From a virus: a DNA stretch of 20,861 nucleotides. The first letter of the stretch is position 1. The number at the start of each line of letters is the position of its first letter. The notes below the pieces were generated by a model. It ran no database searches and had not been told where the DNA came from. It saw only the letters and a program-made list of their open reading frames with translations. Where the stretch lies: IMG/VR virus record IMGVR_UViG_3300025009_000977, positions 1 through 20,861 of that record; one strand, 5' to 3'. Positions 3,001 to 19,720 of the stretch are shown here, piece by piece. A program made the position numbers and the translations under genes.

Positions 3001-5577
3001 AAAAAGAAGCCTAAGGTTTACGCCGCAGTTAATAAGTATTTACTTGACACTGATAAAACCGGAGTAGGCTTCAAGCTTCGTAAAAATGGTGAGACCTGGG
3101 AGGTTAGAGACCGTAAAGATAAAGTCGTCGCTACACATATGGACGAGGGCGCTGCAAATGCAGATCTTGTTAATGCTGAGCAGGAATGGCTTAAGACGCA
3201 GCTTATATCAAAGGATGCGCGGGATCTGATTCTCGAAGCCCGGCTTCTTACCAACAGAGCTTTCGATATTCTTATTGCGGATATGCGTAAGCAGATTACT
3301 CGAGCTACTGAGAATGGACTTGACGAGCCCACCGCTATGTTCGTAGACGCGGATGGCAAGACTAATGAAGTATCGCTTACCGAGCTCATCGCTAATATGG
3401 GTGATCTTCGAGGTACCTATTTTCCTCGTGAACGCGTAGCACGAAACTTTCATCTCGTAGCTGAACAAGAGGGTAAGCCTAGTATCCTCGAAACATTTGA
3501 TTGGCACTTCGTTGAGAATGAACTTGGCAATAACCGTGTTCAGATGATGAAGCGTGCTTTTAATAACGCAGCTCCTGCTGGCCGACGATACCAAGAGTTA
3601 CTGAAAGCAGGTTACAAGGCTGAGAATATTAATATCAAGCCCGTGACTTCACCGACAGAGCTCTTATTTGACCTTCCAGGTGTTCTTGCTTCTCTCGACG
3701 CGATTTTTAGTTCTGCTACTGAGAAGATGAATATCGACAGTCTCGAAGAGTCTGATAAACTCTGGATGGGTACTGTTGATAAAGCCCTAGCTCTACGCGT
3801 TGCTGATATCTATAAGGCTAAGGGTAACTTTAGCTCTAGGATGTCTCGAGCTGATAAGCTATGGGAAGGGTATGAGCCTGACATGATTCGTGCTCTTACA
3901 AGCTACGCTTCACGAGTATCTACGGGCGTAGCCAAGAGAACTACAGCTCGTAAAATGCTTGAGGCCCTAACTGGTCGAGGTGTATCCTGGAAGCAATACC
4001 AAGCACAAGCAGAGAAAGCTAAACAGAAGGTGACTTACCAGGATTACTTAGCATATGTTAAGTCTCAACGGGTAAGCCCGACACAGCAGAAGATGATGTA
4101 TGAAGACCTGCGTCAGTACATCAAGTACTTCTTATCACCAGATGACGCGCTTGGTAGAGCTATAGGTTACTTTAAAGCTGCTACGGTTCTTAAGTACCTC
4201 GGCTTCCGTGTAGGCTCGGCCGCAGTTAATATGACAACCATGGCTATGTCCGTACCCGCTACGATCGCCGGACATACCGGGGCTAATCTGTCAACAGTCT
4301 TTAAGAATATCGCTAGCGCTAGTAAGTCATACCTGGCGTACAAGCATAACCAGTTAATACAAAGGGGATATAAGTTTCTTGGTAAGCCTATGTTGGTGAA
4401 TGAAGCTGACAACGCCATCCTGAATACGATTTATGATAATGGGTGGGCCGAGGCACAGTTCAATCATGACGCAGCTCAGGCTATGACAGGTAAAGTCGGC
4501 GAGTCTATGAATAACCTCATGGCCGCTGCAATGTATATGTTCGGTGCAGTTGAAGAAGCAAACAGAGCTATAACGATTCTTGCAACTTACAAGTCTCAGC
4601 CTGCTACCCTGGGTATGGGCGATAAGCTGGAGCTCTCCAAGCATACCTCGGATAGAGCTCACGGCATTTACGGTAAAGCTGCGAAGCCTTGGCTGGTGCA
4701 GCGGTATAGATTCTTGGATGCTACGTATACGTTCCAGAAATTTCAGCATACGTACCATCTGAATATGCTCGAGCTCTTCGGAAAGTATAAGTCCCCTAAG
4801 GCTGTAGCGTTTATGGGATTGATGCCACAGCTGGTAGCAGGAACCTCAGTGACCGCAACTCTCGGCTTTGCTATAGCTTCTCTGTTTGGCGCCGATGATC
4901 CAGAAGAAGAATACACAACTCTTCTGGCTAAGCTCCTTGGTGATAGTGACTTTGCTGAGTCATTTGCCAAGTTCGGTGTAGTAGGCGCTGCTTTGGGTGT
5001 TAACCTTAAAGGCTCACTTGAAGTTAAGTCGCCGTTCCCGTCTACCCTAAGCGAGCTCTTCGGTGCGCCACAGGCTCTCGTGACGGACACTATAGAGGGT
5101 ATAGGCGCTATATCCAGGGGTGAGGGTAGAAGAGGCGCTGAACAGCTTTTGCCTACCGCTTTAGCAGGACCGCTGAAAGGTCATCGAGAAATGACTGAGG
5201 GCGTCACCAAGAGTAATTACGCGCCGGTCTTTGATCAGGGTAATGTAGTTAAAGCGTCTCCAGTAGACTTCGCTAAACGGTTTCTTAGTTTTAATCCTAC
5301 TGAGGTTTCTGATATACGAAACACCGCATGGAGGGCAGACGAGATTCGGCGTAAGTATACTACAGCGCGGAGTAAAGTCTCAGCTCGGTATAACAGACTT
5401 ATTATCCAGAGAGTACCTGGAGATGATGCTCAGTGGGCTGAATTCTGGAAGTCGGTAGCTCAGTATAACAAGAAAGCGGCTCATGCTAATCCTAGATACA
5501 TGATTCCATTCATTGACACGGATTGGCTCTCAGGTCAAGACAAGCGTAACTTCAAGCCTAACAAGTACACGAAGTAG
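1..5577 (+). CDS. Giant polyvalent virion (probably ejected) polyprotein, 5'-partial
   Basis: The frame is open from base 1 with no stop, so the gene starts outside the window; the ATG at 808 is internal. The visible part is 1858 residues. Seen in order: an ADP-ribosyltransferase-like segment with Arg at residue 228 (LYRGE), WWTTD at 240-244 and Glu at 277; a Lys/Ala/Pro-rich histone-H1-like linker at about 381-460; a charged, probably coiled-coil stretch to about 570; a zincin motif HEASVH at 697-702; and a YFPRERV motif near 1139. Hydrophobic stretches at about 1391-1430 and 1601-1632 lie in a C-terminal third that resembles the large polyvalent-protein-associated domains of phage polyproteins. 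Such proteins are usually virion components thought to enter the host with the DNA. The family call is confident; the separate enzymatic activities are inferred from motifs only. Confidence 0.8.
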   Translation, partial: QERVGLTPAHIDSLLAKHDSGTVETAQFQSLLDSAPNDTIRAGLLATAAGAKHLSIENAETIRKTAEAKAKELSHANALTLAESRRTELAAKIDLTPDEAVQLTLLNKAGVDPIKLGRALNKTITEVPDSAKPVPPPSTDLLHSDAKTLIDARANELANKKFRTTSEKHELLKLGKIQSGGYRIGDVAKTLGRTVLKDPKVATPVTETPVVPKNYLTAQPGDIITLYRGENSENTKDGEWWTTDKAKAERYGVVTEVSLPAEVAAAHAAMGHHGPDEYVFSGKRPAELVNTQTTATPEDIEAQIAEQEAPAPEFDLLANEAGSEVNDIMYDLADQAVDTQDQADTRARAQRFKTLQAAVPNNTPSASAEVVRAPQGVTSTETPTLKAAKAKVAKNKKATAPKVAKPKVVKPRVAKVEKPAKAETPKVVKAEKPVKTEKPKIEKPKVAAKAKAVEEKKTAKETTKVLKQSNDERAATAAAKATADALAKNESQAKKDAEKAKAREELKARITPEKYNEYLSLVDEITSYTTKINRAAQKGDFQTAKALDQSRKIAQARVAAIKSVQTTVTDQKKDTNTIDQASSKVEQDSNVQIQKGQEKASVNQGSQGSSAKDVESELQTKLGDTWTSLKTLGAAKKPGGVTIVNTVPEALEAIGSTVSRRSAKDTTTQALYNPNTGLSAIIANNIEVADAEGILLHEASVHAIENSTLDMEALALFNNNRPTPFMQYVEDSLRAGGLLDEDGNATDANEVRAYIVEHAINLSPQKTVNQKFWQWLSYNHPRIAAYLKKVAAALGSHFKSLGVKIDEGQLNEGQLNAAVASLAKEARDALGNAVKTKDARAEVPVVASVKGYKENEDGVLVKGEAPVKPENVIPLSSVKAEKLSKQDAEALKVLKNLFQSRHKTLEEAAAEVIDDFVISTSNPAMRKYYELTQRISSYKRDKNNQTSTVFDRIVSSPEFYFPKTSAGKKILQAAVDDSDIRYRAQKQVLGDFLDKANLILKKKPKVYAAVNKYLLDTDKTGVGFKLRKNGETWEVRDRKDKVVATHMDEGAANADLVNAEQEWLKTQLISKDARDLILEARLLTNRAFDILIADMRKQITRATENGLDEPTAMFVDADGKTNEVSLTELIANMGDLRGTYFPRERVARNFHLVAEQEGKPSILETFDWHFVENELGNNRVQMMKRAFNNAAPAGRRYQELLKAGYKAENINIKPVTSPTELLFDLPGVLASLDAIFSSATEKMNIDSLEESDKLWMGTVDKALALRVADIYKAKGNFSSRMSRADKLWEGYEPDMIRALTSYASRVSTGVAKRTTARKMLEALTGRGVSWKQYQAQAEKAKQKVTYQDYLAYVKSQRVSPTQQKMMYEDLRQYIKYFLSPDDALGRAIGYFKAATVLKYLGFRVGSAAVNMTTMAMSVPATIAGHTGANLSTVFKNIASASKSYLAYKHNQLIQRGYKFLGKPMLVNEADNAILNTIYDNGWAEAQFNHDAAQAMTGKVGESMNNLMAAAMYMFGAVEEANRAITILATYKSQPATLGMGDKLELSKHTSDRAHGIYGKAAKPWLVQRYRFLDATYTFQKFQHTYHLNMLELFGKYKSPKAVAFMGLMPQLVAGTSVTATLGFAIASLFGADDPEEEYTTLLAKLLGDSDFAESFAKFGVVGAALGVNLKGSLEVKSPFPSTLSELFGAPQALVTDTIEGIGAISRGEGRRGAEQLLPTALAGPLKGHREMTEGVTKSNYAPVFDQGNVVKASPVDFAKRFLSFNPTEVSDIRNTAWRADEIRRKYTTARSKVSARYNRLIIQRVPGDDAQWAEFWKSVAQYNKKAAHANPRYMIPFIDTDWLSGQDKRNFKPNKYTK
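2419..2448 (+). repeat. 15-bp in-frame tandem duplication in the polyprotein gene
   Basis: The unit gagggacagttaaac occurs twice head to tail (2419-2433 and 2434-2448). It duplicates five residues (EGQLN). The copies are identical, which suggests recent slippage in a linker-like part of the polyprotein just after the metallopeptidase region. Confidence 0.9.
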
Positions 5578-5602
5578 TACAAGATAGGTATAATATTTTA
5601 CT

Positions 5603-5638
5603 AGAAGTATTTACTTCTGGTCAAAAACTTGGTATAAT
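5603..5638 (+). promoter_or_regulatory. Extended -10 promoter overlapped by a palindrome
   Basis: TATAAT at 5633-5638 is preceded by TGG, giving an extended -10 (TGnTATAAT). A -35-like TTTACT lies at 5610-5615 with a 17-bp spacer. The -35 sits inside a 7-bp inverted repeat with a 2-nt centre (5603-5618, AGAAGTA/TACTTCT), which could be an operator. The site fills the 118-bp gap after the polyprotein and points at the tail genes from 5696. A small leader hairpin (AGTCC/GGACT, 5647-5661) and an AGGAGG ribosome site (5682-5687) follow. No clear terminator was seen in this gap. This is a motif match only. Confidence 0.55.
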
Positions 5639-5695
5639 CAAAATAAAGTCCTTACAGGACTACGCGGAGTTTAATAAACTTAGGAGGCTTATCTG

Positions 5696-6052
5696 ATGGA
5701 TGCTTTTAGAATTACTCCGGACCTTGCTGGCGGAACCGCTTTATCCGGTACTGAGGCTATAGACCTTACTGTACAAGTTCCTTTTACATATAGACTCGCA
5801 GAGGCTCGGCTTACTCTTGGTGCGGTGTCTGCAGACCTCGGTGACCTGTCAATTACACTCGACTCTGAACTTGGTGCTGGGTTTGATAATGTTATATCAA
5901 CTCCTGATCCAGATGAGGACCTAGCCGCAACTACGAGCTTCCGGTACGCCGATATAGTTCCGCCTATTATCTTTCCAGGTGATGCTATTAAAATAGCTTG
6001 GCCAAATGTAGGTGGTAAAGCCTGGGCTCTTGACATCATCGGCGTAAGATAA
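5696..6052 (+). CDS. Small conserved-looking structural protein, unknown
   Basis: The product has 118 residues. The start has an AGGAGG site 8 bases upstream and follows a strong candidate promoter. It is acidic and rich in alternating hydrophobic and Thr/Ser residues (for example LGDLSITLDSELG), which suggests a mostly beta fold. It has no Cys, no signal peptide and no membrane helix. It lies between the giant virion polyprotein and the tail fibre, 13 bases before the next gene, so a small virion role (tail/fibre adaptor or head decoration) is plausible. That role is inferred from position; I do not recognise the family. Confidence 0.7.
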   Translation: MDAFRITPDLAGGTALSGTEAIDLTVQVPFTYRLAEARLTLGAVSADLGDLSITLDSELGAGFDNVISTPDPDEDLAATTSFRYADIVPPIIFPGDAIKIAWPNVGGKAWALDIIGVR

Positions 6053-6065
6053 GCTAAGGAGCTCT

Positions 6066-7823
6066 ATGAATATAATAGCTCCAGAAAGACCTCGTAGATT
6101 AATGACCAATGGTCGTGGATCCGGGGTCTATAATGGTTTACGTAAAGTTGGCGGTTATCCATCCGACCTGCTCTACTACTACTCCCTCTCGCCGACAGTC
6201 ACAGACGCCAACGCCCTCCGCCCACGCAAGGGTGACCCACTCACTTACAGTGAGACCGCAGACACCCCAGACCGTGACGGCGTAGACTCCCCCGGACCGC
6301 ATGTCTATTTCAGCCCTGAAGGTTATCTCTGGGGCATCGGAGGGCAGGTTGTGGCAGGGCAGGAAATCAGCAAGGTAATGACGGATGCGGAGTTGGCTGC
6401 GCTTGGCTCCGGTATTTATACACAGTTTATTCCACACTCTGAGCCAAGTTTGTTGGTGCAGTTTTCGTCTCAGATCGGCATTTCTATTGCGGCGTCTGCT
6501 GGAGAGATGGCAGCGCTTGCGGAAAACGTGATTGTTTTTGGGGACAATTCCACTCAAAGGCTGGCGTATCAGGACATAGACAACGTGTCAACATCCCAGA
6601 TTATCTCTGCATACGTGTCAATGGATGACGGGAACGCGCCAGTTATCGGGAGTTCTATATCGACAGGGGATTTTTCCCTTGTAGCAAACTCAACAATACT
6701 TGCTATCGGCGTAACTATAACGCACGTCTCAGGGAGTATTTACCGTGTGTCAGCAACCCGGGCAGCTACTGGAGTCGGGGCTAAATTCGGCATTGCTAAA
6801 TATGTAGGGCAATCTGCGCGGTCGTTTAAAATCACCAGGATCAACGTCACACGTACCGGAAGTTTGGAAGAGTATGTTAAAACGATTGGTGTGGCAGCGA
6901 CCGGCGGCAAAGCAGTGATGACGGTATCCTGCCTGATCGTTCCAGGGTTCAACGGCGCAGATCTTCCTGACAATACGTTCAATATCCCTGTGATGGCAGC
7001 AAACGGAGTTGCAGGGTATGTGCCTATAGGTATGGCCAAATCAGGGTCAAGCATGACCGTGGTATCCAGCGATGGCGTGTCCTTCGCAAGCATGGCAGCA
7101 TCTGTCAATGACGGCGAACCTCTCCTTGTCTGCATGAGGACGAGTGCTGACGGGACACAGTTTCAGGTCGGCTCAAGGCTCTACAATCCTGATATGTCAC
7201 CTGACGATGCGTCCATAGTTTGGGGAAGTCTGACAACCTCTGACGGCCAGTTTGACCCGATTGAGAGTTTTCAGATATTCCTCGACACGCTACATGAAAC
7301 CTACGTGCGGATGATTCAGATCTGGAACAAATCATGCACGGATGCTGAGATACTGAAATATGTGCCTGGGGTGCAGGAGGTTGAATTTCCAACTGAGGAC
7401 CTTGTGGCTGCATTTTGGGTCGCAAACAATTTGGTTGATAGTATCGGCTTATTGAGCATTACCATGACAACCGGAACGATTGCAGATTTGCCGAATGCAA
7501 CGTGGGGCTTCCCTTCCGATGCGGCCACACTACAAGCTGACTCAGACCTCGGAGGTGATGCCTTCTTCGACTCAGCTAATGCGATGGCTCCGATAGTCAG
7601 GTCAGGCGCTGAGTGGTACGCGCTGCTCAACGAGACACACGTCTGGATTGGGTTTCATCTGACGAGAGGCGGGATTGTTATCTATACGAACAGCATGGCA
7701 GCTAAAGAGACTCAGATACTGAATTACCTTGGACGGTATTCTCCCGTTGTGAGCTTCAACGAGCTGACAGAAGAACAATTCAATGCGCTGACAGAAGAAC
7801 AATTCAATAATCTGAGTATTTGA
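6066..7823 (+). CDS. Tail fibre / receptor-binding appendage protein
   Basis: The product has 585 residues, with an AAGGAG site about 6 bases before the ATG. The first 25-30 residues (RPRRLMTNGRGSG region) are basic and match the base use of the upstream phage genes. The rest is Gly/Ser/Thr-rich, predicted beta, with jelly-roll or carbohydrate-binding character: a module at about 185-265 (AYVSMDDG ... GSIYRVSATRA) and a LamG-like stretch at about 290-420. The C-terminus ends in two tandem 8-residue repeats beginning LTEEQFN. A conserved N-terminal anchor joined to a variable binding part is typical of phage fibres. Position after the virion polyprotein and before a lectin and a beta-helix protein supports host-surface binding. 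The exact fold is not shown by sequence alone. Confidence 0.7.
   Translation: MNIIAPERPRRLMTNGRGSGVYNGLRKVGGYPSDLLYYYSLSPTVTDANALRPRKGDPLTYSETADTPDRDGVDSPGPHVYFSPEGYLWGIGGQVVAGQEISKVMTDAELAALGSGIYTQFIPHSEPSLLVQFSSQIGISIAASAGEMAALAENVIVFGDNSTQRLAYQDIDNVSTSQIISAYVSMDDGNAPVIGSSISTGDFSLVANSTILAIGVTITHVSGSIYRVSATRAATGVGAKFGIAKYVGQSARSFKITRINVTRTGSLEEYVKTIGVAATGGKAVMTVSCLIVPGFNGADLPDNTFNIPVMAANGVAGYVPIGMAKSGSSMTVVSSDGVSFASMAASVNDGEPLLVCMRTSADGTQFQVGSRLYNPDMSPDDASIVWGSLTTSDGQFDPIESFQIFLDTLHETYVRMIQIWNKSCTDAEILKYVPGVQEVEFPTEDLVAAFWVANNLVDSIGLLSITMTTGTIADLPNATWGFPSDAATLQADSDLGGDAFFDSANAMAPIVRSGAEWYALLNETHVWIGFHLTRGGIVIYTNSMAAKETQILNYLGRYSPVVSFNELTEEQFNALTEEQFNNLSI
7763..7808 (+). repeat. 24-bp tandem repeat at the fibre C-terminus
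   Basis: A 24-bp unit starting gctgacagaagaacaattca is present at 7763-7786 and again, for 22 bases, at 7787-7808. It encodes LTEEQFNA then LTEEQFNN. The identical copies lie directly before the stop codon. Confidence 0.9.
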
Positions 7824-7830
7824 GGGCATT

Positions 7831-8784
7831 ATGAAAAAAAGAATATTATGTGGACTCACCCTACTTCTTCTGGCCAGTCCGGTACATGCAGACCAGATTA
7901 CTTTGCACGAAACTATTGCTGATCTTGGTGGACCCTTTGGGAATGATTTCAACCTAACAATGTTTGAAAACTGGATCAACCAGGGCTTGATGAACACCGA
8001 AATTTATGGCCTGGCTGCTGATATCCAAACATCTCTTGGGATTGCAGCAGGAGTAGAACATTTTGGGACGTTCACCGGGGCAGTAATTACCGACAACCAA
8101 ACGCTTAAAACAGTGCTTCAGGAACTCGAAACAGCCGTTGAGGGTATAGAGGTCGGTGGGCTTGCTGATCTTGATGACCTCCCCGGCGATACGGTTGATG
8201 ATAACCTGATAGATTTTGCATTGCTTGAAGGTGTCCAAGAAAGTCTCCCCACATGCACTATAGATACGGAGATGCTCGAATGGGATACCACAACCTCGGC
8301 TTGGGTATGTGTTGCTCTGCCATCTATTGAGGTCCAAAAAACGGCACCACTTACCGTCGGGGATAACAATGTAGTCGGGTCAACTTTAGCCTTGATTGGA
8401 GATACAGACGGAGACGGCAAGGCCAATGTTCTCGACATGGGCGCAGGGATGGTCAAGACTGATGCGGATGGGGTCGTCTCGGCAATCACTCCAGGCACAG
8501 GAGTGGAAACATTTATTGTCACTCCCTCAACAACGAACTTCTTCTCAATGTTGACCGGAGAAGGGGCGTTTGCTGCGACCTTGTTTGGCTATGCAGATGC
8601 CGGGGAAGTAAGAACCGGATTAAGTCTTGTCCCCGGAACAAATGTCCAGGTGTATGATGTGGACCTTGATGACCTCGCAGACGGTTCACTCACAGCCAGT
8701 AAGGTTGGCGATGGCCTCTATGTAGCCGATGACTGCACCTCTGTATCAACTCCTGCAACGGGGGCAATATGTTTCGAATATTAA
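7831..8784 (+). CDS. Signal-peptide-bearing fibre-like protein with dockerin-like Ca loop
   Basis: The product has 317 residues. The N-terminus is a textbook Sec signal: MKKR, a Leu-rich core, and SPVHA before a likely cleavage after residue 20. The mature part is acidic, with collar-fibre-like phrases such as LADLDDLPGD (111-120) and VQVYDVDLDDLADG near the end, as seen in phage tail fibres. Residues 191-202 (DTDGDGKANVLD) fit a dockerin/EF-hand calcium loop with Asp at 1, 3, 5 and 12; only one copy is present. It starts 7 bases after the fibre gene and overlaps the next gene by 16 bases. Export to the periplasm or cell surface is unusual for a tail gene. Alternatively the segment stays uncut and acts as a hydrophobic virion anchor. 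The specific function is unknown. Confidence 0.65.
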   Translation: MKKRILCGLTLLLLASPVHADQITLHETIADLGGPFGNDFNLTMFENWINQGLMNTEIYGLAADIQTSLGIAAGVEHFGTFTGAVITDNQTLKTVLQELETAVEGIEVGGLADLDDLPGDTVDDNLIDFALLEGVQESLPTCTIDTEMLEWDTTTSAWVCVALPSIEVQKTAPLTVGDNNVVGSTLALIGDTDGDGKANVLDMGAGMVKTDADGVVSAITPGTGVETFIVTPSTTNFFSMLTGEGAFAATLFGYADAGEVRTGLSLVPGTNVQVYDVDLDDLADGSLTASKVGDGLYVADDCTSVSTPATGAICFEY

Positions 8785-9590
8785 TCACCATACTGCTTTG
8801 CCTCGGGCTGACATCTCCCGCACTGGCATCAAAGCGCTGGAACGGTTCGGCGTGGGTTGATACGACTGCCAGGCGCTGGGATGGTGATTCGTGGGAGGCT
8901 GTCGTTGAGAAGCGCTGGGATGGTGATTCGTGGGAGGTTATATCTGGCGGCGAGGCCGATTACTGCGCCGACAAACTCGGCTCCTACTCACTTTATTACG
9001 ATGCTGACCACCCAGACGGGACAACCACGGCGTGTATCTCAGGCGGAACTACCGCCGTAACTATTTCCGGGGTTACTGTCGATGCGTCTGCAAATATGAC
9101 GAGCGGAGGAACATACGGGATAATATGGGACGGGGCATTAGATCATTTCCTGAGCATCCCGGCAGTTGGGATAACTCCATCAAACGGAAGGATTGAACTA
9201 AATTTTAAATTCAACTCCGCCGAAGCCTCGGCAAATGTAGGAATAATCGAGTGGAGATATTCGTCAGGAGAGCGTATAAAAGTTAATCTTGTGCGCTCGG
9301 CTGGCCCGGTTTGGAAATTAGAACTTTTTCACGCAGATGGGTCAAATGTATCAGTTTACACAGCAGACACCGACCTGACCTCAGGGACAGCAGTGCTTAT
9401 AATACTCGATTGGTCCAGTAGTACCGGCAATCTGTTTGCGTCGCTAAATGGAGTGAGTGCAACTATTGCCGGGGGCGGGGCATTTACAACTCCGGCTACT
9501 GGCGTGATACTCGGCGAGGATTTGAGCGGGAGTACATCCTCCACTGCTGTGAGTTTTGACGATATAAAACTTTCTGGGTCACAGCAATGA
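8769..9590 (+). CDS. Secreted LamG/ConA-like lectin-fold protein with Trp repeats
   Basis: The product has 273 residues. An N-terminal hydrophobic segment ending SPALA gives a likely signal peptide (cleavage near residue 20). Next come three 13-residue Trp-rich repeats (KRWNGSAW, RRWDGDSW, KRWDGDSW at 22, 35 and 48). A predicted beta-sandwich follows, with Gly-rich turns and the late motif LFASLNG ... SFDDIKLSG typical of concanavalin A/laminin-G-like domains. The family commonly binds glycans. The start codon lies inside the end of the previous gene, and its stop overlaps the next start as ATGA, so the three genes are translationally coupled. The lectin assignment is moderate; the sugar target is not inferable. 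Confidence 0.65.
   Translation: MFRILITILLCLGLTSPALASKRWNGSAWVDTTARRWDGDSWEAVVEKRWDGDSWEVISGGEADYCADKLGSYSLYYDADHPDGTTTACISGGTTAVTISGVTVDASANMTSGGTYGIIWDGALDHFLSIPAVGITPSNGRIELNFKFNSAEASANVGIIEWRYSSGERIKVNLVRSAGPVWKLELFHADGSNVSVYTADTDLTSGTAVLIILDWSSSTGNLFASLNGVSATIAGGGAFTTPATGVILGEDLSGSTSSTAVSFDDIKLSGSQQ
8832..8937 (+). repeat. 39-bp tandem repeats encoding (K/R)RWDGDSW
   Basis: Three units start at 8832, 8871 and 8910. The second and third share about 27 near-identical bases (gcgctgggatggtgattcgt core); the first is diverged (RWNGSAW). They lie just after the signal peptide of the lectin-like gene. Confidence 0.88.
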
Positions 9591-11239
9591 GACACATCAA
9601 AATAATCATTGCTATTTTTTTGTGTTCTCCGTGTTATGCGGCATACACGCCAATAGTAGGGATACCAACACCAACATGGCCAAGCGGCGGTCTTGATATT
9701 GCTCGCCCCTCTTTGCCTGATCCATGGACCACAGACACGGCTGGGTTTTACTTTATCGAACGAGACGCCATTCCGGCATGTTCTGACACTCCAACAAACG
9801 GCGATCCGACGCACCCCCGTTGCGACTTTCCTTCCTCCATTCCAGCGGGGTCTGTTATCGTCATCAATGGAACATACGATCATTATAAGGTTCTGACGCT
9901 GACCGGAACCCTGAATAATGAAATATGGATTATGGGGTATGATCCTGAGAACCGACCGGTAATTCCAAACCATTTACAGTCTACCTTCGACTATGTGATA
10001 ATGGACGGTATTGACTACACATGGAACTCCGACGATACCCCGTTTGAAGTTGCATCAGGGGCTCATGGCCATTTACTTGTACGTAACTGTAACTTTACAA
10101 ATCCATTCTACCAGAATGGCAATAACGGATCTGCACTCGGGCCAAAAGGTTCAAATATTATCATTTATAACAATACTTTTAATACAATAGGAGATTGGGA
10201 CAACACAGATTCAGGTGACACTGACAGACATGCGATCAAGCTAGACTCAAGCAATGTGAATATTAGTGATATTTGGATTTTGAACAACACCTTTCAATAT
10301 ATCCAGGGTGATGCAATCCAGGTTGGGGATACTGAGGCAGCAAGCACAGTTGCCAACATATATGTTGGTGGAAATACAGCTAGTTATTGCACACAGAACG
10401 GTTTTTGGGCGAAACAAGCAACTGATGTGATTTTCTCGTCCAATATTGCGTCCCACATGCCAAGGCCAAACCCCGATGGTGGTGGCGGTGGAGGCATGGG
10501 GGCGCAATATGACCCCGTAAGTGTCTGGTTCATAAACAACATTATTCACGACACAAAAGACGGAATAATGATTGCTGGTGCCAACAATGGTGGCGGGGGA
10601 CCATTTTACGCAGTCGGTAATTTAATTTACAACGTGCAAAATGACGAGAGCGTAAATGGGAGTTGCAATGCCTATAATTACGGGGCGTTGATGTACCGTA
10701 ACGAGGGCGGTTTTTATGCAGTCAATAATACGATTGCTGACGTGGACTCATTTCTCGTTACCATTCGCACTTCCGGGGTTGTCGCTATGGGTAATATTTT
10801 TTCATCAGCAAAAACTACCGTTTGTCCCGCAATAAATGTGGCTGAATATCCAGGAGCGATGGATTACAATCTATTCAATACAGATGCTGTTAAATTCGGG
10901 CATGATGGTGGTGCTGGTATAGATGATGCCACCATCGAATATACCTCAGTGACGGCTTTCAGGGCGGGAGAGTCGAAAGATGCTAATGCCCCTGTATCTG
11001 CCGATCCACTCTTTGTGGCATCCGATAATTACTGCATCCAAACAACCTCACCAGCAAAAGACACTGGCATCCTCTCAGATGTTTATGTCACATTTCAATC
11101 CCTCTACGGCCTCGACATCCGCCGAGATATAACCGGAGGTGTCCGGCCATACAATACACTGTGGGATATCGGAGCCTATGAGTTCGGCGCTACCCCACCA
11201 GGCCAGAGATACCGAGTCAGGGCGGCGGTGAATGATTGA
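9587..11239 (+). CDS. Exported right-handed parallel beta-helix protein (tailspike/depolymerase-like)
   Basis: The product has 550 residues and its start overlaps the previous stop (ATGA). The N-terminus (MRHIKIII, hydrophobic core, CYA before AYTP) looks like a Sec signal cleaved near residue 18. From about residue 75 to 410 there are repeated N/D-rich coils such as IIIYNNTFN, IWILNNTFQYI, VWFINNIIHD and YAVGNLIYN. This is the pattern of parallel beta-helix repeats in pectate-lyase-like proteins and phage tailspikes. A C-terminal DIGAYEFG motif is also common in secreted beta-helix proteins. Position after the fibre and lectin suggests polysaccharide binding or cleavage. I cannot assign catalytic residues, and the signal peptide makes a secreted rather than virion role possible. 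Confidence 0.75.
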   Translation: MRHIKIIIAIFLCSPCYAAYTPIVGIPTPTWPSGGLDIARPSLPDPWTTDTAGFYFIERDAIPACSDTPTNGDPTHPRCDFPSSIPAGSVIVINGTYDHYKVLTLTGTLNNEIWIMGYDPENRPVIPNHLQSTFDYVIMDGIDYTWNSDDTPFEVASGAHGHLLVRNCNFTNPFYQNGNNGSALGPKGSNIIIYNNTFNTIGDWDNTDSGDTDRHAIKLDSSNVNISDIWILNNTFQYIQGDAIQVGDTEAASTVANIYVGGNTASYCTQNGFWAKQATDVIFSSNIASHMPRPNPDGGGGGGMGAQYDPVSVWFINNIIHDTKDGIMIAGANNGGGGPFYAVGNLIYNVQNDESVNGSCNAYNYGALMYRNEGGFYAVNNTIADVDSFLVTIRTSGVVAMGNIFSSAKTTVCPAINVAEYPGAMDYNLFNTDAVKFGHDGGAGIDDATIEYTSVTAFRAGESKDANAPVSADPLFVASDNYCIQTTSPAKDTGILSDVYVTFQSLYGLDIRRDITGGVRPYNTLWDIGAYEFGATPPGQRYRVRAAVND

Positions 11240-11272
11240 TAAGAAATTACTACCAATCAAAAGGAGATTTTC

Positions 11273-12115
11273 ATGTTAGTTGAAAAAGCCATAGAATTAT
11301 ACATGGAGTATCTCAGAAGTAATACTCGACCAAATACTGTCAGGGCGTTTTATTATACTCTTAGTAGATTTAAAGCGGTCTTCTCAGGCCAAGATTTAAA
11401 TAATGTTAAGGATATTCAGATTATAGAATTTATTCATGATATATCCCCTGATTGTTCTTCTACAACTAAGAATACTAGGGTTAGCGCTCTTCGTGCATTC
11501 TATAACTTTATTAATGAAGTCGCGGATGACGGATTAGTTAATCCATGTATGCGCCCAATTGTACGTAAAATGTTTAAAGTCTCTCGTGGGTCTTCACCTA
11601 AGCTTTTAGATAAGGACTTAATTGATGAAATTATTTTTAGAACTATTAATGAACGTGACCGTTTGATTTTAGAACTTATGGGCCGAGCTGGAATGCGTGT
11701 AGGTGAAGTTCTTAATGTTCGTCCAAGTGATATAGATTCAGACGCCTCAACAATAGCAATCGCTGAGCCTAAGAGTGGCAGAGTTGGTGAAAAAGTTTTT
11801 ATTACTAAGAAACTTTGTGGTAAACTTCAATCTTATATAACTAAACGGCCGTCAATCAAAAATAAAATTATTTTTGATATAAGTTATTCTACTGCGCATC
11901 GTATGGTAAAGCGTTCTGGATTATTGGTTAATTCTAAATTAAGACCTCATGATCTACGAAGACATGCTGCTACACAGGCAAGTAGAAATAGTATCCCTTT
12001 AGAAATAGTTTCAAAGGTTATTTTGAGACACGCAGATATATCAACAACCCAGCGATACTTAGGTACTGTTGACCCAAGTGAAGCGAGCCGTTGGATTGAA
12101 CATTTAAATAGGTGA
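11273..12115 (+). CDS. int: Tyrosine recombinase / phage integrase
   Basis: The product has 280 residues, with AAGGAG 8 bases upstream of the ATG. A SAM-like core-binding region (about 1-95) is followed by a catalytic domain with the full set: Arg142 (GMRVGE), Lys167 (EPKSG), His226 and Arg229 (RPHDLRRH), His253 (LRHAD) and the nucleophile Tyr262 (TTQRYLG). It is compact, more like XerC/D-type or simple phage integrases than lambda Int with its arm-binding domain. The gene is AT-rich compared with the fibre genes before it. It indicates a temperate lifestyle or a resident prophage. No excisionase or obvious attachment core was found next to it. Confidence 0.9.
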   Translation: MLVEKAIELYMEYLRSNTRPNTVRAFYYTLSRFKAVFSGQDLNNVKDIQIIEFIHDISPDCSSTTKNTRVSALRAFYNFINEVADDGLVNPCMRPIVRKMFKVSRGSSPKLLDKDLIDEIIFRTINERDRLILELMGRAGMRVGEVLNVRPSDIDSDASTIAIAEPKSGRVGEKVFITKKLCGKLQSYITKRPSIKNKIIFDISYSTAHRMVKRSGLLVNSKLRPHDLRRHAATQASRNSIPLEIVSKVILRHADISTTQRYLGTVDPSEASRWIEHLNR

Positions 12116-12119
12116 AAGA

Positions 12120-12221
12120 ATGCGGTTTGAGAAACATCACGAAGAACTGTCACACTGGACAATAATGCTTGTGATCCTTGTATCGACAGTATACAATTTC
12201 ATAGCTGGAACAATCTACTAA
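12120..12221 (+). CDS. 33-residue single-pass membrane peptide
   Basis: ATG at 12120 lies 4 bases after the integrase stop. An AGGTGA sequence spanning that stop serves as a close ribosome site. Polar and His-rich N-terminus (MRFEKHHEEL) is followed by a hydrophobic segment at about 13-31 (WTIMLVILVSTVYNFIAG). The TAA abuts the AAGGAG of the next gene. Compact packing and a clean membrane helix argue that it is translated. The function is unknown; a holin-like or small regulatory membrane role is speculation. Confidence 0.55.
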   Translation: MRFEKHHEELSHWTIMLVILVSTVYNFIAGTIY

Positions 12222-12234
12222 AAGGAGAAATGTG

Positions 12235-12621
12235 ATGATGAGGACGGCGGGCTGTACAGGTGCTTGTGGAATAAAATTAATATTACTTATAGCCTGTCTA
12301 TTTATCTCTTCTTGTGCTCCGATGCCGCAGCCGGATAAGATGTTTAAGGGTGTTCAACGCCTTACGCCGTTGGAAGATGTTGAGTTGATAATCCATGAAG
12401 TAAGTCTTGGGGAATGTCTCTGGAAGTGCAACAAGATAGCCTGGGAAGTCAACCCGATTCTCCCAATTCTTGCCCTTGGTGCCGCTCCTGCATGTGGCAG
12501 AGCCTGGCATGACGGCAAAGGTGGTATCAGTAAGTGTGAAATCTGGGTGCCGAAAGGTGACAAGGGCGCGATGAAGCATGAGTTGAGGCACTGCCAGGGC
12601 ATGGCGGATAGGTGGTATTAA
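12235..12621 (+). CDS. Small lipoprotein with HExxH metallopeptidase-like motif
   Basis: The product has 128 residues from the ATG at 12235, chosen because it lies 7 bases after AAGGAG; a GTG at 12232 is too close. A hydrophobic segment ends in ISSC, a good lipobox with the lipidated Cys at residue 27. The mature part has four more Cys and ends KHELRHCQGMADRWY, containing HELRH (HExxH, the zincin metal-binding and catalytic motif). It starts the packed cassette that also contains the holin. An outer-membrane or periplasmic metalloprotein acting on the envelope during lysis or infection is inferred. No third zinc ligand is certain, and the chain is short for a peptidase. Confidence 0.65.
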   Translation: MMRTAGCTGACGIKLILLIACLFISSCAPMPQPDKMFKGVQRLTPLEDVELIIHEVSLGECLWKCNKIAWEVNPILPILALGAAPACGRAWHDGKGGISKCEIWVPKGDKGAMKHELRHCQGMADRWY

Positions 12622-12622
12622 T

Positions 12623-12895
12623 ATGAAATACGGCGACCAAGTATACGTTTGGAACGGAGAAAAGACAGCTACGCACTTGCAAGATTATAATACTTGCCGA
12701 CCAGACAAAGTTCATCGGCCTGGAGATATTTGGATGTTCATTCAGTATATTGATGATACCCTGGCTAAGCACTTAGCGGATAATAGGGCCCGATATATTT
12801 GTATACGAACAAAATCAAGAAGCGGTGGAAATGTTGTAGGAGTTCCAGTACTCTGGGAACATGCCGAAAAAATAACAAAAGGAGAAATAGGATGA
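12623..12895 (+). CDS. Hypothetical 90-residue protein
   Basis: The start is one base after the previous stop (TAATATG) and the end overlaps the next start (ATGATG). An AGGTGG about 8 bases upstream is a plausible ribosome site. It is soluble and mixed alpha/beta in look (YGDQVYVWNG, a hydrophobic DIWMFIQYID stretch), with two Cys and no signal peptide. I do not recognise it. Overlap on both sides makes it very likely to be expressed with the lysis cassette. Confidence 0.65.
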   Translation: MKYGDQVYVWNGEKTATHLQDYNTCRPDKVHRPGDIWMFIQYIDDTLAKHLADNRARYICIRTKSRSGGNVVGVPVLWEHAEKITKGEIG

Positions 12896-13368
12896 TGCGG
12901 AGAGCAGAGAACGAGGCAATGAAGACCGTAGGACTAGCATGGTTGGTTGCTATTATAGCTGGATGTTTTGTTCTTGGTGGGTGTACTATTAAGACTGCTG
13001 AGTATAATTTTAATCAGGGTGTGCCAGATAAAGCTACGCAGCAAGTAGCGCAGGCAAAAGGTTTGACTGGCCCATCAGATATTGGTGGTGGATGTGGAAA
13101 CACCATCGTTATTGTCGAGGAAACCAAGCAGGATTCTGAAGCTGCTGCTAGTACTCAAGGTGCAAGTGCTGCAACAGGGGCTATGAAGGATGTAATCAGT
13201 AAGCTGACAAACGATCTGCGACAGACTGATAGCAATAACCCGACAACTACAACCACGACTACAACAAATCCGATTACACCAGTCACTCCGATTACACCAG
13301 TCACTCCGACTACACCTGAGCCTACTGCGCCACTACCTGGTCAAGGCGAATTTGAGGAGATTGAATAA
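12892..13368 (+). CDS. Thr/Pro-rich lipoprotein (possible outer-membrane spanin)
   Basis: The product has 158 residues. The start at 12892 is preferred because AAGGAG lies 7 bases upstream and it overlaps the previous stop; an upstream in-frame extension to 12799 is a shadow inside the previous gene. An N-terminal helix ends LGGC, a strong lipobox (Cys31). The mature chain is Ala/Gln/Ser-rich and ends in a Thr run and a TPITPV repeat, so the C-terminus is extended and unstructured. Proline-rich lipoproteins near holins are often Rz1-like o-spanins, although those are usually shorter. The spanin role is inferred from context; a surface lipoprotein for lysogenic conversion is an alternative. 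Confidence 0.65.
   Translation: MMRRAENEAMKTVGLAWLVAIIAGCFVLGGCTIKTAEYNFNQGVPDKATQQVAQAKGLTGPSDIGGGCGNTIVIVEETKQDSEAAASTQGASAATGAMKDVISKLTNDLRQTDSNNPTTTTTTTTNPITPVTPITPVTPTTPEPTAPLPGQGEFEEIE
13270..13317 (+). repeat. 18-bp tandem repeats encoding PITPVT
   Basis: Unit ccgattacaccagtcact is found at 13270-13287 and 13288-13305, with a partial third copy (one change) at 13306-13317. It builds the Thr/Pro tail of the lipoprotein. Confidence 0.9.
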
Positions 13369-14057
13369 TGCCTACTTGTCCAAAATGCGGAAACGTTTTC
13401 ACTGAGCAGCCGATACTTTCTGGAAAGCCATTCCCTCATAAAGTAACCTGGGAACTTGATAGTGATCAGGGTAACGGTTCTGCGTGTATCTTGTTTAGAA
13501 CTTTACAGGATGCTGACATTATTGCTGTTACAGTAAATGGTGAAAAAGCCAGAAAAGGTATTCCTTATAAAGGTTGTCCGGTTTTCTTGATGAGTAAGCC
13601 TGGAGGTAGTTATAAAAATCCTCTGATTATGGCTATTACAATGTCTGATAATGTAACTTATGCTTATGTTGCCAATGCTTCCGGTGGAGGAACAGGTGGT
13701 GGAGGCGGTGGTACAGGTAATTATCTTCACAAGGCTACGTACGATTCATATGGAGTTCGGAATGGTAGACAGGCATGGAGGATTGATAAGCGGGGCGATA
13801 GTTTAGGTCCAGGCCCTGTGAAGTTTACTTTCTCTTCTGGAAAAACCTTTACAGTGAAATCAACTGCGAAAAATTGTCGCGATCAAGAATCAACTTGTAG
13901 CAGAAACAGCAAGTCACCTATGTACGGATTTGTTTTTAAGCCCGGAAACGGGCGACCGAACGGCGAAGGAGATAGCGATATTGGTACGAGCCATGGTGGA
14001 ATATATCTACATGCCCCACATGGAGACAGTAGTAAGCAAGTAATTATGGAATGGTAA
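13368..14057 (+). CDS. Zn-ribbon plus Gly-linker two-part protein, unknown
   Basis: The product has 229 residues. The start overlaps the previous stop by one base (TAATG), with GAGGAG 8 bases upstream. Residues 1-10 contain CPKC, half of a zinc ribbon. A beta-rich part runs to about 105, a poly-Gly linker (GGGTGGGGGG) spans about 106-117, and a second domain rich in Lys, Ser and Gly ends with GIYLHAPHGD. Flexible Gly linkers between domains are frequent in phage lytic or virion proteins. It is the largest product of the cassette and so the only size-compatible candidate for a lytic enzyme here, but no known endolysin motif is visible. Confidence 0.6.
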   Translation: MPTCPKCGNVFTEQPILSGKPFPHKVTWELDSDQGNGSACILFRTLQDADIIAVTVNGEKARKGIPYKGCPVFLMSKPGGSYKNPLIMAITMSDNVTYAYVANASGGGTGGGGGGTGNYLHKATYDSYGVRNGRQAWRIDKRGDSLGPGPVKFTFSSGKTFTVKSTAKNCRDQESTCSRNSKSPMYGFVFKPGNGRPNGEGDSDIGTSHGGIYLHAPHGDSSKQVIMEW

Positions 14058-14058
14058 A

Positions 14059-14340
14059 GTGATTATCTGTGAGTACTGTTTAGCTGAATTTCATGGTAGA
14101 ACATTTTGTCCAGGGTGTGGAGTGAGTATCTTGGAGACACGAACTATAGCAGATGAAAGTTTACTGATGATAACAATGCGTGGTGTTAAAGACAGATACG
14201 CGCAGTGTGAAGAGTTGTTTTGTTTTGCTTATGATATTATGGGAAAGCTACCAGATATATGGTGTCCGCACTTTCAGCAGATTAATGGAAAGAAGACTTG
14301 TGATAATTGTGGTACTACTAACAAAGAGGTGAGTAGATGA
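14059..14340 (+). CDS. Small multi-Cys zinc-ribbon protein
   Basis: The product has 93 residues from a GTG one base after the previous stop; the ribosome site is weak, so coupled translation is likely. CEYC (4-7) and CPGC (17-20) form a probable four-Cys zinc ribbon; a second CPHF/CDNC set (69-84) may bind another zinc. No enzyme motif is seen. Its end overlaps the holin start as ATGA. Confidence 0.6.
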   Translation: MIICEYCLAEFHGRTFCPGCGVSILETRTIADESLLMITMRGVKDRYAQCEELFCFAYDIMGKLPDIWCPHFQQINGKKTCDNCGTTNKEVSR

Positions 14341-14690
14341 ATCTGAAGTTCATGACAGATGTATTTAGGGTAGGTCAGCAAGTTAGAAACCCCGAGACGT
14401 GGAAAAATGCCGGCACAATGTTTGCTACGGTAACAGGGCTTCTAGGTATTGCATTTGCAGCTTTACGACACTTCGGGTATATTACGGTTGAACTTACTGC
14501 TGCAGATGCGGAAGTAATAGCTGGAATCTTAATATCTCTCGGAAGTCTTTTCCATATTATCTGGACAAAAATAACGAGCAAAAAAGTTGGAGTTCCTGGA
14601 TTAGATAAGGCCGAGCCCACAAGACCTGTTAAAGCTGAAGAACTTGAAAGACCATCCACACCTGGTCAAAGTGAGGTGCTGCGTGGTTGA
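14337..14690 (+). CDS. Two-helix holin-like membrane protein
   Basis: The product has 117 residues. Two hydrophobic helices are visible: about 25-48 (AGTMFATVTGLLGIAFAALRHFG) flanked by WKN, and about 58-77 (AEVIAGILISLGSLFHIIW), followed by a Lys-rich, polar C-terminus. Size, two helices and a charged tail fit class II phage holins (for example the r1t-type family), which permeabilise the inner membrane at lysis. The upstream gene ends inside its start codon and the downstream gene overlaps it by 8 bases. The holin role is inferred from topology and neighbours. Confidence 0.65.
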   Translation: MNLKFMTDVFRVGQQVRNPETWKNAGTMFATVTGLLGIAFAALRHFGYITVELTAADAEVIAGILISLGSLFHIIWTKITSKKVGVPGLDKAEPTRPVKAEELERPSTPGQSEVLRG

Positions 14691-15093
14691 AGATGAACCT
14701 GAAAAAGAGGGAAATTTAAAAGGTTGCAGTTTCTCTGAAGACGGAGTATGTAAGCTACACGGCGTAGAAGTTGAGCGTAGAGTTAAGTCAGTTGCGATTC
14801 AGAATTGGCTTCTTGGGTGGTCAGTTCTCGTTATGGTGTTTGTCGGTGGGGCTTATATCTATACCCGGGAAGTGAAGAATGATATAAATATTCGTCATGC
14901 ATATGATACTAATTCAGCCAATACAAGTATCAAAGAACTAGCAAAACAAGTTGAGGCTCTTATGAATGGCCAGACTAGAACAGAAGAAAGATATGAGTCC
15001 TTGCTACGTGCCATAACAGACATGAATGCTAATATATCAGCACTCATGTATTTGCAGTTTGAAAAAGCTGATGCTAAGTCGAAAGGCAAATAA
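14683..15093 (+). CDS. Single-pass membrane coiled-coil protein (i-spanin-like or XhlA-like)
   Basis: The product has 136 residues. I chose the GTG at 14683 because GAGGT lies 5 bases upstream; an earlier in-frame TTG at 14644 would overlap the holin by 47 bases without a ribosome site. A short Cys motif (GCSFSEDGVCKLHG) lies at about 13-26. Next is one membrane helix at about 44-60 (LLGWSVLVMVFVGGAYIY), then a polar, heptad-like region to the C-terminus. An N-in topology with an external coiled coil next to a holin resembles inner-membrane spanins or haemolysin XhlA-like proteins. The exact role is inferred. Confidence 0.6.
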   Translation: MVEDEPEKEGNLKGCSFSEDGVCKLHGVEVERRVKSVAIQNWLLGWSVLVMVFVGGAYIYTREVKNDINIRHAYDTNSANTSIKELAKQVEALMNGQTRTEERYESLLRAITDMNANISALMYLQFEKADAKSKGK

Positions 15094-15136
15094 GGTCATC
15101 CGGTGATAGTACCACAAATTTAATCATGGAGCCATC

Positions 15137-15367
15137 GTGGCTGAGAAACCTAGAGACTACAAAAGAGAGTACGCATTGTACCACGGCAAGCCTGAGCAGA
15201 TCAAACGACGAGCTCAGCGAAACAAGTCACGGCGGGCCTTAGCTAAACAGGGTTTAGTTCACAAAGGCGATGGCAAAGATTGTCATCATCGCGACAATAA
15301 TCCCTTTAACCAAGGCCGGTCTAATCTGGCTATAATATCTAAGTCTAAGAATAGGAGTATGAAATGA
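15137..15367 (+). CDS. Small basic HNH-like protein
   Basis: The product has 76 residues from a GTG with GGAG 5 bases upstream. The N-terminal half is Arg/Lys-rich. The C-terminal part DCHHRDNNPFNQGRSNL ... KNRS has the His-His ... Asn ... Asn spacing of a minimal HNH fold, as found in many phage HNH proteins near genome packaging or late genes. The lack of a Cys-pair zinc site suits the small phage type. It follows the membrane protein by 43 bases and overlaps the next gene. Confidence 0.6.
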   Translation: MAEKPRDYKREYALYHGKPEQIKRRAQRNKSRRALAKQGLVHKGDGKDCHHRDNNPFNQGRSNLAIISKSKNRSMK

Positions 15368-15525
15368 CGGTAAGAGACTGGTTTAAGAAGAAAGGAAGCA
15401 CTGCAGAAAAGAAACCCGTAACTAAACCTGTACAGGTGAAAGACAAGACGTCTACTACGATTAAAGGTGCCGTGAAGAATATCACGGATCGGAAACGTAT
15501 GCTTGACGAAGCAGCTGGAATGTAA
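15364..15525 (+). CDS. 53-residue Lys-rich peptide, unknown
   Basis: The ATG overlaps the previous stop (ATGA) and has AGGAG 6 bases upstream, a good start. The product begins MTVRDWFKKKG and is basic and Thr-rich with no Cys. It is the last gene of the + strand cassette, directly before the convergent terminator. No family is recognised. Confidence 0.6.
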   Translation: MTVRDWFKKKGSTAEKKPVTKPVQVKDKTSTTIKGAVKNITDRKRMLDEAAGM

Positions 15526-15558
15526 CTCCTGGTCACCTCCTACGGACCTTTATAATAC

Positions 15559-15661
15559 CCTTTCTTAAAGTGTACATTTGACTATAGCCGATCGAAATAA
15601 AAAAGTGTATAAACGTATTCGAGACTTTCGAAGAGTCAACCTCGATATGTTTATACACTTT
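15559..15661. repeat. 103-bp duplicated regulatory element, copy A
   Basis: Three blocks are shared exactly with copy B at 19931-20033: cctttcttaaagtgta (15559-15574), ataaacgtattcga (15609-15622) and tatgtttatacacttt (15646-15661). Their offsets (0, 50, 87) are the same in both copies although the sequence between them has diverged. Copy A lies between the two converging gene blocks. Confidence 0.85.
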
Positions 15662-15666
15662 TTATT
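15596..15666. terminator. Long bidirectional terminator hairpin between converging operons
   Basis: The left arm (15596-15623) and right arm (15641-15666) are near-perfect complements over about 26 bp, with core GTGTATAAAC/GTTTATACAC and CGAG/CTCG; the inner loop can form GACT/AGTC. Each side ends in an A/T run, giving a T tract for transcripts in either direction. It sits 70 bases after the last + gene and 25 bases beyond the last - gene, as expected of a shared terminator. Confidence 0.8.
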
Positions 15667-15690
15667 TAGCTTCTAGAGGCCTAATCTGAG

Positions 15691-15972
15691 TTATATTTCA
15701 ACTCGGTTAATGAGATACTTAATCTGCTCCAGGGTAACATGCATTTCATTTAAGGGCTCCGCGGTGCTTCTAAAGTACTCAGAACTTGGCGCAAAAAATG
15801 GTGGCGACGCTTCAGAGCATACTCGAGGATCTTCAACGATCAAGCAGCTTACGCGGGCCTGCACGAGGTCACGAATTTCAAAAATAAATCCACGCATCTC
15901 ATTTAACTTACGTACAAACTGCGCGCCTTCAGTATCTTTAGGATTTAACATTGGTCTACCTGCTTCTAACAT
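15691..15972 (-). CDS. Hypothetical 93-residue protein, last gene of the minus operon
   Basis: An AGGAG site lies just before the ATG, and the start overlaps the dCMP deaminase end by 17 bases. The sequence looks mostly helical (VRKLNEMRGFIFEIRDLVQ and a C-terminal LEQIKYLINR), with two Cys and no membrane helix. It may form a small helical bundle. Unrecognised; perhaps an accessory factor for the nucleotide-metabolism genes it follows. It ends 25 bases from the terminator hairpin. Confidence 0.6.
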   Translation of the reverse strand: MLEAGRPMLNPKDTEGAQFVRKLNEMRGFIFEIRDLVQARVSCLIVEDPRVCSEASPPFFAPSSEYFRSTAEPLNEMHVTLEQIKYLINRVEI

Positions 15973-16414
15973 ACCATTCTCCTAGTAGCTCAGGTTCAAT
16001 AAATACTACGGTTAGTTTTGCGTCCTCAATTAACTCAACAACAAACTCTTGATTCCATGATGACTCAGGGTCTATTGGTAGAGTCACTATAGTCTTGATC
16101 CTCCCATTTTGAATTATGTTTCCGAGACACTGCGTACACGGTAAGCAGGGATAGATATAAATAGTATCCCCTATACCGTCAGCAGAAATAAGACAGTTCA
16201 CTTCAGCATGAACCATCAACAAGTTCTTCAGCTCTTTATCAGCCAATCTATATGGCGTGTCCTCTATACCTGTAGGAAACCCATTATAGCCAACGCCTCG
16301 TATTCTATGACCCTCGGTGATGACTGCTCCGACTTTCTTATTGGGGTCCTTTGACCAGAGAGATACATGCCGAGCGAGCTGAAGATATCGGACCCTCCAT
16401 TTATCAATTTGCAT
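15956..16414 (-). CDS. dCMP deaminase (deoxycytidylate deaminase)
   Basis: The product has 152 residues. It has the cytidine/deoxycytidylate deaminase zinc centre: His69 and the proton-shuttling Glu71 in HAEVNCL, and Cys90/Cys93 in PCLPCTQC. A further phage-type feature is NGFPTG near 44-49. The enzyme converts dCMP to dUMP, feeding thymidylate synthesis for phage DNA replication in the cytoplasm. It starts one base after the nucleotidyltransferase stop (TGATATG), so translation is coupled. Length and motifs are normal for the family. Confidence 0.92.
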   Translation of the reverse strand: MQIDKWRVRYLQLARHVSLWSKDPNKKVGAVITEGHRIRGVGYNGFPTGIEDTPYRLADKELKNLLMVHAEVNCLISADGIGDTIYIYPCLPCTQCLGNIIQNGRIKTIVTLPIDPESSWNQEFVVELIEDAKLTVVFIEPELLGEWYVRSR

Positions 16415-16415
16415 A

Positions 16416-17177: not shown

Positions 17178-17179
17178 AG

Positions 17180-19038: not shown

Positions 19039-19054
19039 AAACCTCCTTTAGTAT

Positions 19055-19273: not shown

Positions 19274-19434
19274 TCATCCTCCCTTGATATGCCCGGAAAC
19301 CACGCGTCATCATAATCAAGATCCTCTTCGTCGAGGTCTTCATCGTCGTCGTCATCGTCTTCATCATCGTACGGCGTCATAGTGTCAAGTCTATGCTGAC
19401 CCTCTGCCGCCGCATCTTTATATTTCGGTCTCAT
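19270..19434 (-). CDS. Poly-Asp acidic 54-residue protein
   Basis: The ATG at 19434 has AAGGAGG 9 bases upstream, so the longer reading to 19533 is rejected. Residues 23-42 are almost all Asp/Glu (DDEDDDDDDEDLDEEDLD) and 24 of 54 residues are acidic, with a short basic start (MRPKYK). Its end overlaps the next GTG. Such acidic small phage proteins include DNA mimics (Ocr-like), but no homology is visible. Mimicry is speculation. Confidence 0.6.
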   Translation of the reverse strand: MRPKYKDAAAEGQHRLDTMTPYDDEDDDDDDEDLDEEDLDYDDAWFPGISREDE

Positions 19435-19719: not shown

Positions 19720-19720
19720 A

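Follow-up and report, generated by a model that had tools for sequence, protein, structure and literature searches.

Why would a phage place export signals on three consecutive genes of its tail region? In the accepted view, tail fibres and spikes are parts of the virion that are made in the cytoplasm, and the question is raised by a 20,861-nucleotide stretch of viral DNA (IMG/VR record IMGVR_UViG_3300025009_000977, positions 1 to 20,861; hereafter, the window), in which the plus-strand genes P1 (7831..8784, 317 residues), P2 (8769..9590, 273 residues) and P3 (9587..11239, 550 residues) follow one another and each begins with a predicted Sec signal peptide. On balance, we lean towards the reading that the triplet is an exchangeable late-region cassette through which the host would Sec-export three glycan-active proteins that act on its own surface polysaccharide. 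The triplet with its export signals recurs in unrelated uncultured phages, and for this reason a cell infected by a phage with the triplet is probably induced to export proteins that modify its own coat of sugars.

Signal peptides were scored with a homemade model of n-, h- and c-regions, and the scores were compared with those of 31 well-known Escherichia coli signal peptides and with two nulls. All three proteins show the features that define a Sec signal cut by signal peptidase I, namely a basic n-region, a hydrophobic core of 7-15 residues and small residues at -3 and -1. The P1 signal (7831..7890, plus strand; MKKR-ILCGLTLLLLA-SPVHA, then DQ) is predicted to be cut after VHA at residue 20, the P2 signal (8769..8828, plus strand; MFR-ILITILLCLGL-TSPALA, then SK) after ALA at residue 20, and the P3 signal (9587..9640, plus strand; MRHIK-IIIAIFLC-SPCYA, then AY) after CYA at residue 18. 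Their scores of 21.7, 18.2 and 16.0 fall within the range of the E. coli signal peptides (11.8-27.2), and the first-pass annotation, which had reported three consecutive Sec signal peptides here, was borne out, and its coordinates are exact. Composition-shuffled N-termini of the window phage scored 14 or more in 0.14% of cases, and none of 1913 internal sequence windows did so. Among the 92 genes predicted in the complete phage, P1-P3 and a 72-residue open reading frame with a signal resembling those of the twin-arginine translocation (Tat) pathway (17.3) gave the top scores. An earlier 15-column cleavage-site matrix called P1 and P2 and missed P3, because its training set was poor in Ile-rich cores; it was replaced by the n/h/c model, on which all three score as signals. 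Moreover, P3-type proteins of five viral contigs (L032, L033, L035, L036 and L039), which share 27-33% identity with P3, have retained an n-h-c signal in the same place, directly before a conserved [YW]TPPxGIPxP start, so that the P3 signal is independently supported by same-position signals in homologues. The genes are also coupled by overlaps, as had been claimed: P1 and P2 share 16 nucleotides (8769..8784, plus strand; P1 ends in ICFEY and a stop codon, and P2 starts with MFRIL), and P2 and P3 share 4 (9587-9590, plus strand).

The same N-terminal segments had alternatively been explained as hydrophobic virion anchors, or they could be membrane-targeting tails of ejected proteins, and their hydrophobic stretches of 8-12 residues and their location in the tail region would suit such a role. 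However, n-, h- and c-regions with cleavage sites of the A-x-A or V-x-A kind are present in all three proteins, the conserved mature start of P3 lies right after the predicted cut, and bacterial relatives of P3 mostly carry the same signal in the same place. The cysteine pattern described below is in keeping with oxidising compartments, and lipoboxes occur in some relatives. We found no second hydrophobic stretch of transmembrane strength in the mature parts of P1, P2 and P3. Anchoring was thus the weaker half of the first-pass proposal, and we consider it highly improbable.

To what kind of protein do these signals belong? P3 gives the clearest answer. Its AlphaFold2 model (mean predicted local distance difference test score, pLDDT, 79.1; predicted template-modelling score, pTM, 0.86) is a right-handed parallel β-helix, and its top PDB matches, with Z-scores of 22-28, all have this fold, in agreement with the first-pass description. 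The best of these are PL6 alginate lyases (Z 28, 13% identity), Vibrio cholerae RbmB (Z 26) and the AlgE4/6 epimerases (Z 26), followed by tailspikes (Z 23-24). AlgE4 was also reached from P3 by sequence profile (E-value 9e-4), and a PL6 chain gave a weak match (E-value 0.16). The C-terminal segment of P3 (11036..11185, plus strand), with an invariant WDIGAYE, resembles the choice-of-anchor-Q family NF041518 (E-value 9.2e-4); at 19.4 bits it stays below the curated cut-off of 25, and we describe it as a related segment.

Bacterial and archaeal genomes, scanned for relatives of P3, contained them at 69 loci; the scan returned bacterial homologues and no prophages of the window phage. The closest relatives (39-43% identity) were found in a Bdellovibrionales genome, the bacterium UBA2219 and a Wolfebacteria genome, one of them in an exopolysaccharide locus. 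Most of the relatives, although not all, score as exported. Four of the examined loci, in UBA2219, a Desulfobacterales, Moritella and Psychromonas, are exopolysaccharide gene clusters, in which the neighbours include glycosyltransferases, a Wzx-type transporter/flippase, O-antigen ligase, UDP-sugar dehydrogenase, polysaccharide deacetylase and heparinase-like proteins. These export scores and cluster neighbours indicate that P3 is a member of a bacterial β-helix family, mostly exported, that is represented in exopolysaccharide clusters. In a quick tree computed without bootstrap, P3 of the window grouped with its closest bacterial relatives with full support, and the other phage copies were scattered in several places. 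Phages probably took up a P3-type gene more than once, presumably from bacteria. The label of tail-type genes given to the triplet is right in part. P1 is of a virion-fibre type, and the nearest relatives of P3 are bacterial, its phage copies lying at several places of the tree.

We then asked whether the ordered triplet is peculiar to the window phage. IMG/VR was scanned with P3 and its alignment, and P3-type proteins were found in about twenty contigs. With a cut-off of 12 for contig tallies, the P3-type protein carries a signal in 13 viral contigs; 11 of these reach the cut-off, and two (L033 at 11.2 and L009 at 11.4) were taken as exported by eye. The L005 β-helix, which has no clear signal, was left out of the exported tally. 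The gene just upstream of the exported P3-type protein is itself exported in 11/13 cases, compared with 4/79 more distant same-strand genes (Fisher 2e-9), and both upstream genes are exported in 10/13 (the window, L006, L009, L032, L033, L035, L036, L039, L046 and L049). The usual order in these ten is a larger protein, fibre-like or otherwise, then a protein mostly of 190-305 residues, and then the β-helix. None of the four P3-type proteins that lack a signal (L004, L044, L050 and L123) has exported upstream neighbours. When 11 of these records were searched for the portal of the window phage, it was not found in nine and gave weak partial matches in two; since portals are not recognisably shared, the triplet carriers do not form one lineage. 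In L009, two exported β-helices (3044-4390 and 5077-6504) end in an identical 15-residue C-terminus, ATLTRSASSGIGLLQ, which is perhaps a sorting or attachment tag.

An independent scan with the P1 motif led to the same association. It returned 68 distinct carriers, of which 13 were signal-positive, three of them weakly or doubtfully, and at least two exported neighbours were present in 7 of these 13 and in 1 of the 55 others (p 1e-5). One carrier, L170 (862-8365 of record G021, IMG 2883713342), has MuA/MuB-like genes by eye and is apparently an isolate genome, judging by its IMG number. It has the C-terminus of P1 (SPATG-ICFEY) and an almost identical nucleotide sequence where P1 overlaps the next gene, and its tail region holds at least five exported genes, including IPT/TIG-like and β-helix proteins. 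We found no description of such an exported three-gene module in the open-licence literature, and the paper on phage phiCbK, which we checked on this point, mentions no signal peptides in tail proteins.

P1 itself resembles a fibre. Residues 49-106 match the virion structural family phrog_24595 (E-value 1.9e-8), a virion-structural sequence module, through a 40-residue motif. The P1 motif GTFTGxxIxDNxTxxxxLQxLETAxE (7999..8166, plus strand) is common to many phage fibres; P1 is also 54% identical over 48 residues to cyanophage tail-fibre and decoration proteins. The protein had been called a dockerin-loop protein. One calcium-type DxDGDG loop can indeed be read in it, but a dockerin needs two duplicated calcium-binding F-loop segments, and the Pfam search of P1 gave no dockerin match, just DUF6898 at an E-value of 0.17; P1 is not a dockerin. 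P2 contains three RW(D/N)GxxW units followed by a predicted β-rich C-terminal part. The suggestion of a LamG-like lectin gained no support from Pfam, in which P2 had no match, LamG included, or from an AlphaFold2 model made without an alignment, which was of low confidence (pLDDT 47.6). By hhalign, P2 showed no relation to the 250-residue exported proteins of L032, L033 and L039 (probability below 1%).

Since proteins of this kind would fold in an oxidising compartment, cysteine richness is to be expected of them. The median cysteine content per 100 residues was 0.85 in exported fibres and 0.23 in non-exported fibres with the P1 motif, an about four-fold difference (p 1e-5), and the seven exported P1-motif carriers alone showed an excess (p 7e-4). 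The cysteines of exported fibres often lie in close pairs, and the mature chain of P1 has four, in two close pairs at mature positions 121/139 and 281/293. The enrichment spans different hosts and supports export, short of proof. Some exported fibres also carry lipoboxes (L039 and L202), which point to a membrane location.

Could the exported proteins nevertheless be parts of the virion? P1, perhaps together with P2 and P3, would then fold in the periplasm with disulfides and join virions when the membrane breaks in lysis. The virion-structural motif of P1 and the cysteine enrichment agree with this, and so does the gene L046 (505-3177 of record G019, 38,992 bases), in which a Sec signal (score 20.5) directly precedes a T7-type fibre attachment domain (PF03906, E-value 1.9e-6, above cut-off; phrog_1640, E-value 5e-30). 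The gene order of G019 is T7-like by eye, and L046 occupies the fibre-gene position, behind genes read as tail tubular. No second T7-type fibre domain was found in the whole G019 record by these profiles, so that in this phage either virion fibres are exported or another fibre, unseen by these profiles, is in use; the signal on its sole detected T7-type fibre leaves room for a virion role. On the other hand, a fibre of the ordinary kind, without a signal, is encoded next to the triplet of the window phage. This 585-residue protein (6066..7823, plus strand), encoded 7 nucleotides upstream of P1, matches the phage head spike fibre domain NF048003 of NCBIfam at an E-value of 9.4e-6, below the curated cut-off; since it lacks a signal, at least one fibre of the phage is of the ordinary kind. 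Lipoboxes would tether some of the exported fibres to the membrane, and we know of no tailed phage that assembles its fibres by export and joining at lysis. In addition, G008, a close relative of the window phage (portal 73% and giant protein 52-67% identical), has in place of the triplet a set of genes that includes a fibre-like one of 727 residues and a methyltransferase-like one, indicating that this lineage can form virions without the triplet and that the triplet is an exchangeable cassette. Virion fibres exported in this way therefore seem unlikely to us for the window phage. Similarly, we would put little weight on the more general proposal that some tailed phages, including the T7-type G019, make adsorption fibres outside the cytoplasm as exported, disulfide-bonded proteins that join virions at lysis or are shown on the dying cell as receptor-masking copies.

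Another explanation is lysogenic conversion, in which a triplet expressed from the prophage changes the surface or matrix of the lysogen (adhesion, biofilm, phage resistance), as lambda lom or bor would. A tyrosine recombinase gene (11273-12115; Pfam Phage_integrase, E-value 1.4e-20) directly follows the triplet, and the Mu-like phage L170 has a related arrangement, with its five exported genes and the same P1 C-terminus. But the recombinase also occurs in G008, which is without the triplet, and the 7-nucleotide gap to the upstream fibre gene, together with the overlapping starts, suggests that the genes are expressed jointly and late. A repressor, which was not the object of a specific search, was not identified in the window phage. 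Conversion of this kind appears to us quite improbable. As a separate observation, the G008 copy of the recombinase is shorter (130 residues, 67% identical).

Signal peptides, gene coupling, recurrence of the triplet, the β-helix fold, mostly exported relatives, four of them in exopolysaccharide clusters, cysteine enrichment and loss or exchange of the cassette, all obtained by computation, lead us to the following model of glycan-active proteins exported by the host. Judging from gene spacing, P1-P3 would be made late in infection from the tail-region transcript. Sec would export P1 as a tail-fibre-type protein, P2 as a possible binding module and P3 as a β-helix that binds or modifies polysaccharide; signal peptidase I would cut the signals, and the mature chains would reach the periplasm and perhaps the cell's outer surface, with disulfides able to form there. 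The mature proteins may bind, mask, trim or modify the surface or extracellular polysaccharide of the host. As likely benefits, sibling and rival phages would stop adsorbing to the infected cell, and progeny would not be trapped in the coat. The final role would be to block superinfection, to aid release or to supply virion fibres that mature outside the cytoplasm. The first-pass idea of a phage-encoded secreted glycan-binding system was accordingly the better-supported half of its proposal, through the export and exopolysaccharide loci of the P3 family, the recurring order and the cysteines. Lysogenic conversion, capsule remodelling and superinfection block, the roles that it named, are candidates.

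Several points weigh against this model. The signal predictor is homemade. Catalytic residues were not identified in P3, so that P3 could be a binder alone, and the fold of P2 is unproven, being established neither by profile nor by model. Even cysteine counts among all exported proteins (25/45 vs 28/69) show just a weak bias; the difference in cysteine density of fibres was clearer. The export signal on the sole detected T7-type fibre of G019 speaks for a virion role in that phage. Finally, lysis would free the proteins even without a signal, and the benefit must therefore precede lysis or depend on periplasmic folding; that phage copies of P3 keep the signal is sensible only if the proteins act ahead of lysis or depend on the periplasm for folding.

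How does the triplet compare with known systems? Phage tailspike depolymerases act on surface polysaccharide as virion proteins that are not known to carry Sec signals. Like P3, those examined (Det7-like Dettilon gp208, LKA1 gp49, Sf6 and the K5A lyase) are parallel β-helices, several with Z-scores of about 23; unlike them, P3 has a signal, and its nearest relatives are bacterial. T5 Llp and lambda Lom and Bor are phage-encoded, Sec-exported surface proteins that act on the envelope, some of them encoded in the tail region. They are single genes, however, and are not fibre-, lectin- or β-helix-like, whereas an ordered triplet is present here. Also comparable to P3 are Pantoea stewartii WceF and V. 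cholerae RbmB, bacterial enzymes of exopolysaccharide matrices; both are exported β-helices with a tailspike- or lyase-like fold, and the gene of WceF lies in an exopolysaccharide cluster (PMC7949094). WceF uses a Tat signal, in contrast to the predicted Sec signal of P3. P3 also differs from both in being phage-encoded beside two other exported proteins, and its activity is putative. The Bacillus phages SP10, phiNIT1 and SPG24 encode GH32 levan enzymes of bacterial derivation for extracellular polysaccharide, and these three, unlike other GH32 enzymes, are reported to be without a signal peptide (PMC4595243). P3-type phage copies, by contrast, carry one.

A cassette of an exported fibre, a small protein and a β-helix, found across unrelated portals, suggests that many uncultured phages route adsorption-type proteins through host secretion, and that exported proteins can be concealed under the label of tail fibre in metagenomic phages. 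The triplet gives a starting point, open to test, for finding new polysaccharide-modifying enzymes and superinfection-control genes. If fibres are indeed made outside the cytoplasm, this would add a new stage to the assembly of phages or a novel class of superinfection control, contained in an exchangeable three-gene module.

The window belongs to a complete-looking phage. It matches the 62,969-base assembly IMGVR_UViG_3300025000_000012 at 100%, which has a terminal direct repeat of 127 base pairs and hence a unit of 62,842 bases; window positions 1088-20861 correspond to its first 19,774 bases and positions 5-1214 to its last 1,210. Genes were called by hand. By reading and PHROGs, the structural genes lie on one strand and the DNA-metabolism genes on the opposite strand, and a giant protein is encoded upstream of the triplet. 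This protein resembles the DarB/PLxRFG-type proteins of phages of about 60 kb (Klebsiella LASTA and Serratia Parlo), but at 24% identity over about 26% of its length, which indicates only distant kinship to any isolate phage. The isolate-phage collection gave no match to the 585-residue fibre, P2, P3 or the L008 β-helix.

Further features were noted around the triplet and in related records. The 585-residue fibre has a C-terminal repeat, LTEEQFNALTEEQFNNL, near position 7823. Downstream of the triplet, in the same direction, lie two predicted lipoproteins, one with the lipobox ISSC (12235..12621, plus strand) and one with the lipobox LGGC (12892..13368, plus strand). The latter ends in GQGEFEEIE, a C-terminus that it has in common with a lipoprotein of L036 (6573-6911), each being encoded behind the triplet of a different phage. 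The 72-residue Tat-like open reading frame (19055-19273, minus strand) has the signal motif SRRNFMK and falls just below the cut-off of NCBIfam TAT_signal_seq. In the early region of the phage (G001, 34647-34982), we observed an overlapping tandem duplication of about 290 base pairs whose copies are 89% identical.

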